Of a stretch of DNA of 31,409 nt, positions 17,477 to 30,003 are shown in pieces. The notes beneath the pieces were generated by a model, which made no database searches, was not told the origin of the DNA, and was given only the letters and a program-made list of their open reading frames with translations. The position numbers and the translations under genes were made by a program. The DNA comes from a virus, in IMG/VR virus record IMGVR_UViG_3300008448_000390, positions 1-31,409 of that record. The stretch is one strand, 5' to 3'. Numbering within the stretch: position 1 is the first letter of the stretch; every line of letters starts with the position of its first letter.

Positions 17477-19936
17477 ATGCAAGTTCTAAATTTAAAAATA
17501 GCAGGGCTTTTTACCAATCCTAATCAGTTTTCTGAAATACCAGAAGGAGCATTGATCCAAGCAGACAATATCCAGATCGACAAAGGATCAGTAGCGGAAC
17601 CAAGAAGAGGGCAAGCAAAGTATGGTCAAATGCCATCTTCTTACACTGGGACTATAGACGCATTATTTGAATATAATAATAGACTTTTAGCTAGTTATGA
17701 CAACAAAATTGCGTATGACAATGGTAGCGGAACATTTACGGCATACACAGATCCATACTCGGCACAGTCAGGGTATAGAATCAAGTCAACCAAAGCCAAT
17801 AAGAATTTCTATTTCACTACTACTCAGAATATTAAGAAAATCTCAGTTTTAACAGATCAACCAATCTCGGCAGGTGTGCCAAGGGCATTAGATGCAAGTC
17901 TATCTGTAGTGGCAGGAAGTTTTCTTCCTAACAATAAATCAGTGTGTTACAGGTTTGTTTGGGGCTATAGAGATGCCAACGACAATTTACTTTTAGGTTC
18001 TCCAAGTGGGAGGGCAGTAATAGTCCATGAATCAGGTGGGGATAAAGATGTAAGTGTTACATTGTATATCCCAGACAATGTATTGGAAGGGTATTTCTTT
18101 CAGGCATATAGATCAGCAATAGTAGATAAGAATATAGTTCCATCGGATGACTTGCAATTAGTGTATGAAGGAGTGGCAACTTCTACAGATGTTAATATTA
18201 ATGGCTACGTAACTTTTACAGATATAACTCCTGACGATTTAAGAGGAGCAGCACTCTATACCAATCCAACACAAGAAGGAATTTTGCAAGCTAATGAGGA
18301 ACCTCCTTGTGCTATTGATATTTGTACTTTTAAAAACATGACTTTCTATGCAAATACTAAGTCTAAACAAAATATATTTATTACATTGATTGCAGTAGCA
18401 TTAATCCCTTCCTCTCCTAGCACTACAAAATTAGTGTATGACGATACAATAACTATCAATGGAATCACTTATACAGCTAAGGCGACAGAAAGTGTAGGTA
18501 GTGGACATTTTAAGTTATTTAATGGAAGTTCAGATGCTGCAAACATAGCAGACACAGCAAAGAGTCTTGTTAAGATTATCAATCTAAGACAGGCTAATGT
18601 GAGTGCTTATTACGTTTCTAATTATGGAGATTTACCAGGTAAAATACAAATTATAGCCAATGATTATTCTTTGCCACAATTTGCAGTGGTATCCTCAAAG
18701 TCTCAATGTTGGAATCCAGTACTACAATCAAGTGGAACAGACAATTCATCTTCTAATGACGTAAATCCAAATAGAGTTTATTTTAGCAAATTACAACAAC
18801 CCGAAGCAGTACCGATATTAAATTATCTTGATGCAGGCGTGGCAACAGATCCTATTTATAGAATTATTCCTTTGAGAGATTCTGTTTTTGTTTTAAAAGC
18901 CAATGCAATTTATAGAATAATAGGAGAAGATCCTACTTCTCTAAGAATCTCATTATTTGACAATACAGTCTCCTTAATTGCCACAGAGTCGGCAGTTGAA
19001 ATGAACAATCAAATCTATTGCTATACAGACCAAGGGATGTGTGCAGTCAGCGACAATGGAATACAAATCATTTCCAGACAGATAGAAGATCAAATCCAAC
19101 AGTCTGAAATATTAAGCAATTTTCAAACTCTCTCTTTTGGCGTAAGTTATGAAGTAGATAGGAAATATATCTTTTATTGTAAGAAAATAGAAACTGACAC
19201 TTATCCTACTCATGCCTATGTTTTTAATTTCTTCACCAACGCTTGGACTAAATATATTAATAATCGTTCATGTGGTATAACATTTGATAATAGACTGTAC
19301 ATGGGTGGAGTCGATGGATATATATATAAAGAGAGAAAGCAATTAAACTCTTCAGACTATGTAGATGACGTTTACAATGTTACTATCAATAGTATTGCAG
19401 GGAATGTAATAACTTTACAAGATGCTACTAATGTAGCAATCAATATGGTTTTATCTAAAGGAAATATTTATTCAGTTATTACAGTAGTAAATGGAAACAA
19501 TATTACAGTAGAATCAGGCGTAGGATTTACTACAGGATCTGCTTTTGTCTATGAAGCAATAGAATCTATAATTCAATGGTCTCAGAACAGTATTCAAAAC
19601 CCAGGTATTTTAAAACATTTTAGGGAAGTGACAATGTTATTTAGAACAGCAGATTTCTCTTCTATTGAACTTGGATTCTCTTCAAACTTTGATCCCAATC
19701 CAGAATATACCGAGGTTTCTCCTTTGAGGTCGGATCAATGGGGTTCTTTCCCTTGGGGTTCAATTCCTTGGGGCTTTGGTTCTGGTTTGGCTTATCCTAT
19801 TAGGACATATATTCCATTGCTTAAAAGACGTGCTTCTTGGATATTTTTTAAGGTTAGATCCAAGAAAGCACAATCCTATTTTGCAATACAAGGTCTTAGT
19901 GTGCAATACGAAAACATGTCCGAGAGGTTTAAATAA
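17477..19936 (+). CDS. Tail nozzle / stabilisation protein
   Basis: An 819-residue beta-rich protein after the adaptor. The N-terminus (L-K-I-A-G-L-F-T-N-P-N-Q-F, P-E-G-A-L-I-Q-A-D-N-I-Q-I-D, then V-A-E-P-R-R-G) is the conserved start of beta-propeller tail nozzle proteins of podoviruses. A G-C-S-like I-T-F-D-N-R-L-Y-M-G-G-V-D-G-Y block and a P-W-G repeat near residues 750-775 (S-F-P-W-G-S-I-P-W-G-F) follow. It is the largest structural protein and likely forms the exit channel. Confidence 0.8.
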   Translation: MQVLNLKIAGLFTNPNQFSEIPEGALIQADNIQIDKGSVAEPRRGQAKYGQMPSSYTGTIDALFEYNNRLLASYDNKIAYDNGSGTFTAYTDPYSAQSGYRIKSTKANKNFYFTTTQNIKKISVLTDQPISAGVPRALDASLSVVAGSFLPNNKSVCYRFVWGYRDANDNLLLGSPSGRAVIVHESGGDKDVSVTLYIPDNVLEGYFFQAYRSAIVDKNIVPSDDLQLVYEGVATSTDVNINGYVTFTDITPDDLRGAALYTNPTQEGILQANEEPPCAIDICTFKNMTFYANTKSKQNIFITLIAVALIPSSPSTTKLVYDDTITINGITYTAKATESVGSGHFKLFNGSSDAANIADTAKSLVKIINLRQANVSAYYVSNYGDLPGKIQIIANDYSLPQFAVVSSKSQCWNPVLQSSGTDNSSSNDVNPNRVYFSKLQQPEAVPILNYLDAGVATDPIYRIIPLRDSVFVLKANAIYRIIGEDPTSLRISLFDNTVSLIATESAVEMNNQIYCYTDQGMCAVSDNGIQIISRQIEDQIQQSEILSNFQTLSFGVSYEVDRKYIFYCKKIETDTYPTHAYVFNFFTNAWTKYINNRSCGITFDNRLYMGGVDGYIYKERKQLNSSDYVDDVYNVTINSIAGNVITLQDATNVAINMVLSKGNIYSVITVVNGNNITVESGVGFTTGSAFVYEAIESIIQWSQNSIQNPGILKHFREVTMLFRTADFSSIELGFSSNFDPNPEYTEVSPLRSDQWGSFPWGSIPWGFGSGLAYPIRTYIPLLKRRASWIFFKVRSKKAQSYFAIQGLSVQYENMSERFK

Positions 19937-28202: not shown

Positions 28203-28357
28203 GTTGTTATGTCTCCTTTTGTGTTTATCGAATTTTCGTGAAAAAACTTAAATGAAATAAAAATCATTTTTTTTCTTTTTTTATCTTTTTTTTGTTTACT
28301 TTTTTTCGGGATAGGTTACGATAATAAATATATAAGAGATCAAAGGAGATCAAAACC
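28203..28357. promoter_or_regulatory. Divergent promoter region
   Basis: This 155-bp region separates leftward and rightward genes. A rightward candidate is TTTACT (28295-28300), then 16 bases, then TACGAT (28317-28322). A leftward candidate is weaker (TTTAAG, 17 bases, GATAAA on the minus strand). A small dyad, TTTTC-GT-GAAAA (28234-28245), lies near the leftward promoter and could be an operator. Long T-runs on the plus strand fill 28267-28307. Confidence 0.55.
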
Positions 28358-28540
28358 ATGAAAAAAAATCAAAAACTAACACTAGAAAATAAAGGCAAAA
28401 TAATTAATGAAATTATTGGAATCGTAAAGGCATCTGCAAAAAAAGCAAATGTTTCAAATTTGGATGCAGGTGATTTATTTTTTAAGTTAGCTTTTATGGA
28501 AGATAAGAAATTATTAAAATTATATTCTCAAATTTCCTAG
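28358..28540 (+). CDS. Small early protein (first gene of the right operon)
   Basis: A 60-residue basic helical protein of unknown function with an ideal AAAGGAG site. Its TAG stop (28538-28540) lies inside the 5' strand of stem I of the hammerhead candidate, so the ribozyme begins where the gene ends. Confidence 0.65.
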   Translation: MKKNQKLTLENKGKIINEIIGIVKASAKKANVSNLDAGDLFFKLAFMEDKKLLKLYSQIS

Positions 28541-28589
28541 CCTGACGATGGGGAGCTTGCCACTCCCCGAAACCCTTTTGGGTCGCTAG
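28537..28589 (+). ncRNA. Type I hammerhead self-cleaving ribozyme candidate
   Basis: All core elements are present in order. Stem I 5' strand CTAGC (28537-28541). CTGACGA, matching CUGANGA (28542-28548). One extra T (28549). Stem II GGGGAG (28550-28555) with CTCCCC (28563-28568). GAA (28569-28571) with A15.1 (28572). Stem III CCC (28573-28575), loop TTTT, GGG (28580-28582). T16.1 (28583) and C17 (28584). Stem I 3' strand GCTAG (28585-28589). Both ends open from stem I, the type I topology. Cleavage is predicted between 28584 and 28585. The extra T between A9 and stem II departs from consensus; a one-base insertion at this place is known in a chrysanthemum viroid hammerhead. Confidence 0.8.
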
Positions 28590-28608
28590 AAGCAAACAAG
28601 GAGAAAAT

Positions 28609-28770
28609 ATGAACAACACAACAATCAGAGTAAATAAAGAGCTTATCGAAAAAGCAATCGAGAAGCATAAAAAAATTAAGAAACTAAACCCAGAAGAGAA
28701 AATCTTTGTTCAGGGTTTTATTGCTAGTCTGTTAGCCAAGTATGCCGCTGGCAATTTAGTGGAGAAATGA
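28609..28770 (+). CDS. Small basic early protein (53 aa)
   Basis: An ORF of 53 residues (ATG 28609, TGA 28768-28770) with a strong AAGGAG site. Lys-rich helical N-terminus (I-E-K-A-I-E-K-H-K-K-I-K-K-L) and a G-F-I-A-S-L-L-A-K-Y-A-A-G hydrophobic segment. Function unknown. Predicted ribozyme cleavage would give its mRNA a new 5' end 24 bases before the ATG. Confidence 0.65.
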   Translation: MNNTTIRVNKELIEKAIEKHKKIKKLNPEEKIFVQGFIASLLAKYAAGNLVEK

Positions 28771-28771
28771 A

Positions 28772-29092
28772 ATGCTAGATAAAGATTGTATTTTAATAAA
28801 AAATTATATATCAAACCCAAAAACTTATGATGACTTTTGGGAAAACGCAAAAACACTTTCGTATCAATATTCATCCAGATCAAAATTAGATTTTTTTTCT
28901 TGGAGAGATGCATATGGTATTCCGTATGCAATACACTTTGATAAGACTGGAATTAAAACAGCCCAACAAATAGAAGAGTTTATGACAGAGGACGATACCG
29001 AAAAGAAATACGTGAGAGCAAATAAATTAGTCGTTCCAAGGATTAATTTATCGGAGTATTTGAATCAAAAAAAACAGGAGATAACAGCATGA
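28772..29092 (+). CDS. Hypothetical early protein
   Basis: A 106-residue protein of unknown function with a mixed aromatic N-terminal half (Y-D-D-F-W-E-N-A-K, S-W-R-D-A-Y-G-I-P-Y) and an acidic C-terminal part. GGAG site. The stop overlaps the next ATG by four bases. Confidence 0.65.
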   Translation: MLDKDCILIKNYISNPKTYDDFWENAKTLSYQYSSRSKLDFFSWRDAYGIPYAIHFDKTGIKTAQQIEEFMTEDDTEKKYVRANKLVVPRINLSEYLNQKKQEITA

Positions 29093-30003
29093 ATGAGATT
29101 ATAATCCAAAATAACAACCCACTCGAAAACATTCGCCAGTCAACAGACGTGGCAGGAGCATGTAAAGAGATAGTCACTAAGACAGCAATAAGCATCCAAG
29201 GAAAAAAATATGTCCCTGTAGAGGGATGGATGAGCATTGCAACGGCTCATGGGTGTGTAGCTAGTATATCAAAAGTTGAATCAGTAGAAGGAAATATTAA
29301 TTTTGTAAGAGGCTATAAAGCAACTGCAGAAATTAGACGCATGACAGATAACATGCTAATTTCTACAGCCGAGGGTTTTGTAGGTGAAGATGAACCTGTT
29401 TGGTTTGGAGGAGAGTCTGAAGTATACGACAAGCAGACCAAAAGAAAGGTAAAAAAAATCTTACCAAAACGACCAGATTTTGCAATTCGTGCAATGGCTC
29501 AAACAAGAGCTTTGTCGAGAGTATGTAGGTCTGCTTTTGCTCACATAGTAGTACTTATGGATGCAGGTCTTAGCACTACGCCTGCAGAAGAAATGTCTTA
29601 TGACATTGAAGTTAAAGCAACAGAAAGTAGAGAAGAGATAGTTAAACCAGAAACCAAGCCTGAACAAAAACAGCCAATAAAATCAAGCATAGAAGAAACA
29701 TTCTCTAAGTTCAAAACTGCCATTAGTGAGTGTCTTCTCACTCTCAATCTGGATAGATTTATAAAGGCAAGTCAGACTTTTGATAAATACGTCGAAACTC
29801 TTCCAGAAGAGATTTACGAAGAATATAGCCATTACATGACTAAAACTCTAACTCAGATTACAGAACAAATAGAGTCAGGAGATTTTGCAACTAGCGAAGT
29901 ACAGAGAGATCAATTGATTAAACTTTTTCCAGTCTGGAAAAACGAAATTACACGAGTCTATAACAACCAACCAAAAAAAGACCAAGAGGAGAGAATATTT
30001 TGA
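29089..30003 (+). CDS. Conserved phage protein, putative single-strand annealing / recombination
   Basis: A 304-residue protein. The N-terminal 175 residues form a conserved phage domain: I-S-I-Q-G-K-K-Y-V-P-V-E-G-W, T-A-E-G-F-V-G-E-D-E-P-V-W, R-A-M-A-Q-T-R-A-L-S-R-V-C-R-S-A-F-A-H-I-V-V-L and T-P-A-E-E-M. The Q-T-R-A-x-S-x-x-x-R block with a downstream T-P-A-E-E-M is shared with phage recombination proteins of the annealing type, but I am not certain of the family. The C-terminal part is charged and helical. Early position and the nearby nuclease suit DNA recombination. Good AGGAG site. Confidence 0.6.
   Translation: MNEIIIQNNNPLENIRQSTDVAGACKEIVTKTAISIQGKKYVPVEGWMSIATAHGCVASISKVESVEGNINFVRGYKATAEIRRMTDNMLISTAEGFVGEDEPVWFGGESEVYDKQTKRKVKKILPKRPDFAIRAMAQTRALSRVCRSAFAHIVVLMDAGLSTTPAEEMSYDIEVKATESREEIVKPETKPEQKQPIKSSIEETFSKFKTAISECLLTLNLDRFIKASQTFDKYVETLPEEIYEEYSHYMTKTLTQITEQIESGDFATSEVQRDQLIKLFPVWKNEITRVYNNQPKKDQEERIF

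Follow-up and report, generated by a model that had tools for sequence, protein, structure and literature searches.

A predicted pseudoknot-stabilised type I hammerhead ribozyme conserved between the first two genes of a phage early operon

Hammerhead ribozymes of all three types, with pseudoknots and with clusters around single genes, were reported from phages and prophages in 2011 (Perreault et al., PMC3088659), and published phage hammerheads cleave in vitro, one array also in E. coli (PMC3088659). That survey rejected sequences with core mutations or core-adjacent mispairs unless activity had been measured (PMC3088659), a rule by which copies carrying an extra base may be under-represented in it, and insertions of 1 or 2 nt beside CUGAnGA are within the known range (PMC10085705). 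A published review treats the role of hammerheads in phages and bacteria as an open question (PMC6155905).

The sequence studied here, the window, spans an entire IMG/VR virus record (31,409 bases). Among its products are a P22-like portal, a terminase and a phage replication protein O, which mark it as all or part of a tailed-phage genome. Its 819-aa protein (17477-19936) shares about 30% identity, across 76% of its length, with a protein of a Silvanigrella aquatica phage, the sole named phage record matching this protein and a weak hint at the host. On the plus strand at 28537-28589, between the first two genes of the early (right) operon, lies a complete type I hammerhead, which by sequence has every mark of the class and is predicted to be a self-cutting RNA. 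All the features claimed for it in the original prediction were found, namely an invariant core (C3 U4 G5 A6 N7 G8 A9, G12 A13 A14, A15.1-U16.1 and H17), three surrounding helices of 5, 6 and 4 bp (stems I, II and III), and the type I topology in which loops close stems II and III and stem I is open. Read 5' to 3', the element comprises the 5' strand of stem I (CUAGC, 28537-28541, from the pattern reading), the core segment C3-A9 (CUGACGA, 28542-28548, N7 being C, read from the sequence and its relatives), the stem II hairpin at 28550-28568 (GGGGAG 28550-28555 pairing with CUCCCC 28563-28568 around the loop CUUGCCA), the core G12-A13-A14 (GAA, 28569-28571), the stem III hairpin ACCC-UUUU-GGGU at 28572-28583 (ACCC 28572-28575, GGGU 28580-28583, including A15.1-U16.1) and, after H17 (C28584), the 3' strand of stem I (GCUAG, 28585-28589, from the pattern reading and covariation). 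Applied to this fold, the hammerhead rule places the predicted cleavage site at 28584/28585. Stem II usually, though not by strict definition, follows A9 directly; here one U intervenes at 28549. The element begins one base 5' of the stop codon UAG (28538-28540) of the first gene, so the stop codon is inside stem I. Of the folds open to the 63-nt element, the hammerhead has the lowest energy (-21.0 kcal/mol).

In an alignment of 29 elements 17 of the 19 pairs change on both sides, giving a covariation score of 0.727 versus 0.211 for shuffled alignments and at most 0.159 for slid versions. All five stem I pairs covary, as do three of the four in stem III, where the A15.1-U16.1 pair is invariant, and both-sided changes affect five of the six stem II pairs among the relatives. 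The pairing percentages of stems I-III arise partly by selection, because these stems were required when the elements were collected. The pseudoknot was not a criterion when the elements were picked. It is formed by UUGC of loop II (28557-28560) and GCAA of the tail adjoining stem I (28592-28595), both halves being identified by their covariation with each other, and makes this a pseudoknot-stabilised hammerhead. This interaction, missed in the original prediction, covaries above every shuffle: in the 29 elements 92% of its cells are paired (alignment columns 21-24 with 68-71) and three of the four pairs are unbroken throughout, and among 74 elements with the extra U at least four Watson-Crick pairs are possible in 51, compared with 16.6 on average, and never more than 28, in 300 shuffles. 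Two G+C-rich hairpins within an A+T-rich stretch, present in several copies in some contigs, might also be a transcription terminator or a DNA repeat with hammerhead-like hairpins, but we consider this extremely improbable, as no U run lies 3' of the element, the single-stranded core is invariant while the stems vary by compensation, and even a looser descriptor (stems of at least 4, 4 and 3, extra base allowed) matched only 3 times in 600 dinucleotide shuffles of the window searched on both strands, a chance of about 1 in 200. A terminator was specifically rejected, since the terminator scan found none at the element.

Four related contigs were found through two neighbouring proteins, without the RNA element as query, and in each of the four the element directly succeeds the opening gene of the corresponding operon. 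The original prediction had staked itself on relatives preserving CUGANGA, GAAA and the paired stems, and all four keep them. N7, which is C in the window, reads T, A, A and T across these relatives, with the rest of CUGANGA fixed; one C-G pair of stem III becomes U-A, and none has lost the extra U. Changes among these close relatives are thus confined to N7, loops, and compensated or wobble pairs. The first gene upstream is of three unrelated types across the five phages, and it is flanked in all of them by the promoter-like leader on its 5' side and the ribozyme on its 3' side. In the window this gene encodes 60 aa (28358..28540, plus strand, from the ORF list) and its product has no PHROGs match. 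The leader ahead of the swapped gene (28294-28357) is strongly conserved in the five phages, and begins with a promoter-like block (28294..28325, plus strand; TTTACT 28295-28300 and GATAAT 28320-28325) that is kept in the four related contigs, with a spacing between the two motifs of 17-19 nt when the five contigs are read side by side. The block, which is absent from the listing of the consensus promoter scan, may act as a promoter. Downstream, the next gene (53 aa, 28609..28770, plus strand) is likewise kept in the four contigs, two of which (L006 and L007) have an additional small gene between it and the ribozyme. A 304-aa protein encoded at 29089-30003 (PHROG 19042) is also kept in related contigs.

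The type I covariance models of Rfam, proposed in the original prediction as a check, gave no match in the window. No Rfam hammerhead model matched it at gathering, nor anywhere in the stretch at E values up to 10, and RF00163 (Hammerhead_1) run alone against the window gave no match even at E 10, its gathering cut-off not being reached. The Rfam 15 hammerhead models also reach gathering in none of 24 related loci with type I phage hammerheads (among them L009, L011, L012, L018, L020, L036, L070, L145, L180 and L223), some copies of which lack the extra base. As every other copy tested was also missed, the negative result reflects a limit of the models and is not counter-evidence. Rfam scans at loose thresholds returned only chance-level matches to unrelated families, and the scan at gathering found neither pistol nor twister-P5 in the window. 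Annotation of phage genomes consequently passes over ribozymes of this kind, which the Rfam models missed in every copy tested.

Viral contigs were scanned with a descriptor of the full type I fold, in which stems I-III were required. This identified at least 143 distinct elements, of which 88 have the extra U and at least 53 have no extra base, frequencies that are not comparable with each other. The extra U, the one deviation noted originally, is a trait common to a large phage set and not a defect. Both kinds occur together in single contigs (L020, L034, L046 and L066). Searches of whole records used a covariance model built in this analysis, which gave nine matches in record G011, six in G015 and one in the window; the nine in G011, a 35.6-kb virus record that includes L020, are both with and without the extra U. 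As a check on chance, matches to the core and stem II were followed outwards: of 109 from viruses, 72 complete a full type I fold, versus 5 of 120 from bacterial genomes, and the few bacterial cases include the multi-copy contigs L329 and L332. BLAST of the region against named phages gave no match. The short element alone gave weak matches. Two of the records hit in this way hold covariance-model matches: a Christensenellales phage, whose three copies score up to 71.7 bits, and Aphanizomenon phage CL131 (without the extra U, 50.5 bits). Matches of the short element to Gordonia, Prochlorococcus, Synechococcus, Microbacterium and Streptomyces entries are partial, and the Silvanigrella phage record has no covariance-model match.

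The extra U bears on how actively the element might cut. One publication reports in its title that the consensus catalytic core of a viroid contains an extra nucleotide. We take this viroid to be chrysanthemum chlorotic mottle viroid, with the extra nucleotide between A9 and stem II. According to a passage in another paper, which cites other work, a viroid hammerhead whose core has an extra nucleotide is weakly active (PMC11014351), and the cleavage rate could for this reason be low here. Because of the extra U, which every close relative shares, the element could be a hammerhead by descent that is slow or conditional, leaving the junction mostly uncut and serving as a regulated or weak processing site. 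A competing fold in the window agrees with this: in an 86-nt context an alternative about 1 kcal/mol more stable pairs UUUCCU with the ribosome-binding site. We nevertheless regard this as rather unlikely, as the extra U is so widespread, the core is strictly conserved, the pseudoknot is intact and relatives are without the competing UUUCCU pairing. A related proposal, in which UUUCCU 5' of stem I would keep the ribosome-binding site covered until the RNA is cut, was abandoned, as relatives lack UUUCCU.

The position of the element relative to coding sequence is systematic. Among the matches listed, 133 elements have sufficient flanking sequence. In 128 of these a stop codon on the same strand lies at the 5' edge (from -60 to +20 of that edge, most within 3 bases), and 124 of 133 have a same-strand ribosome-binding site and start no more than 160 nt from the cut; in the opposite-strand control these numbers fall to 56 and 35 of 133, respectively. 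This stop-to-ribosome-binding-site placement fits mRNA splitting, and the programmed splitting proposed originally is well supported by it. The window itself has the predicted 24-base leader for the next gene, running from the predicted cut to the ATG at 28609 and carrying AAGGAG (28598-28603, plus strand), a layout repeated in relatives. Since the pseudoknot tail ends 2 nt 5' of AAGGAG, and abuts or overlaps the ribosome-binding site in L002 and L006, it is also conceivable that the element mainly controls translation of the second gene, the uncut fold and pseudoknot hindering ribosomes and cleavage freeing the leader. This seems improbable, as the start codon is further off in many relatives (median 39 nt from the cut) and the downstream genes belong to no common family. 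Indeed, no single gene family is linked to the ribozymes on either side, 90 downstream proteins falling into 34 PHROGs families and 73 upstream proteins into 37, mostly of unknown function with some ATPases, primases, helicases and anti-restriction proteins. Other ribozyme classes occur in the same gene clusters as the hammerheads, pistol at L070:799-874 and L072:1682-1749 alongside hammerhead arrays, and twister-P5 in two copies at L066:1870-1925 and 2315-2370. Such co-occurrence would be predicted from published work on ribozyme association (PMC10085705, PMC4604425), and suggests that ribozyme class is interchangeable at these junctions. A broader proposal, which we offer tentatively, is that phages use interchangeable hammerhead, pistol and twister ribozymes as standard cutters of early-operon junctions, the cut in the window being a fixed device by which a swappable first gene is expressed separately from the genes behind it.

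From the fold, its covariation and its conserved place and strand we infer that the element is very probably a pseudoknot-stabilised type I hammerhead that cuts between C28584 and G28585, splitting the message between the first gene and the remainder of the operon. In the early transcript the hammerhead would fold over the junction of the first and second genes, held by the pseudoknot between loop II and the tail 3' of stem I, and would cleave itself co-transcriptionally. The upstream piece would then carry the folded ribozyme at its 3' end and terminate in a 2',3'-cyclic phosphate, and the downstream piece would start with a 5'-hydroxyl and the 24-nt leader carrying AAGGAG. A likely use would be to separate the swappable first gene from the rest, allowing the two halves to decay and be translated independently; unequal expression of the two genes, as originally suggested, is conjecture.

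The five related phages, in which a fixed ribozyme follows a swappable first gene, offer a clean test of the role of such elements, to which the large set with its counted stop and ribosome-binding-site placement adds. Several known systems can be set beside this locus. The phage pistol and twister-P5 ribozymes share gene clusters with hammerheads but have different folds and active sites. The hammerhead of chrysanthemum chlorotic mottle viroid processes the viroid's own genome RNA and has no mRNA role. Hammerhead_1 of Rfam is alike in type I topology and core, although the model itself gives no match here. The phage and prophage set of Perreault et al. (PMC3088659) has in common with our elements the core, the type I topology, a location between phage genes and the occurrence of several copies flanking single genes; about 40% of known members also have a pseudoknot, which connects stem I with stem II (PMC3088659). 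The window element differs in its extra U after A9, a shared feature that earlier catalogues may or may not include. As intergenic phage hammerheads and pseudoknots of this kind are already published, the window element is a further example of a known sort.
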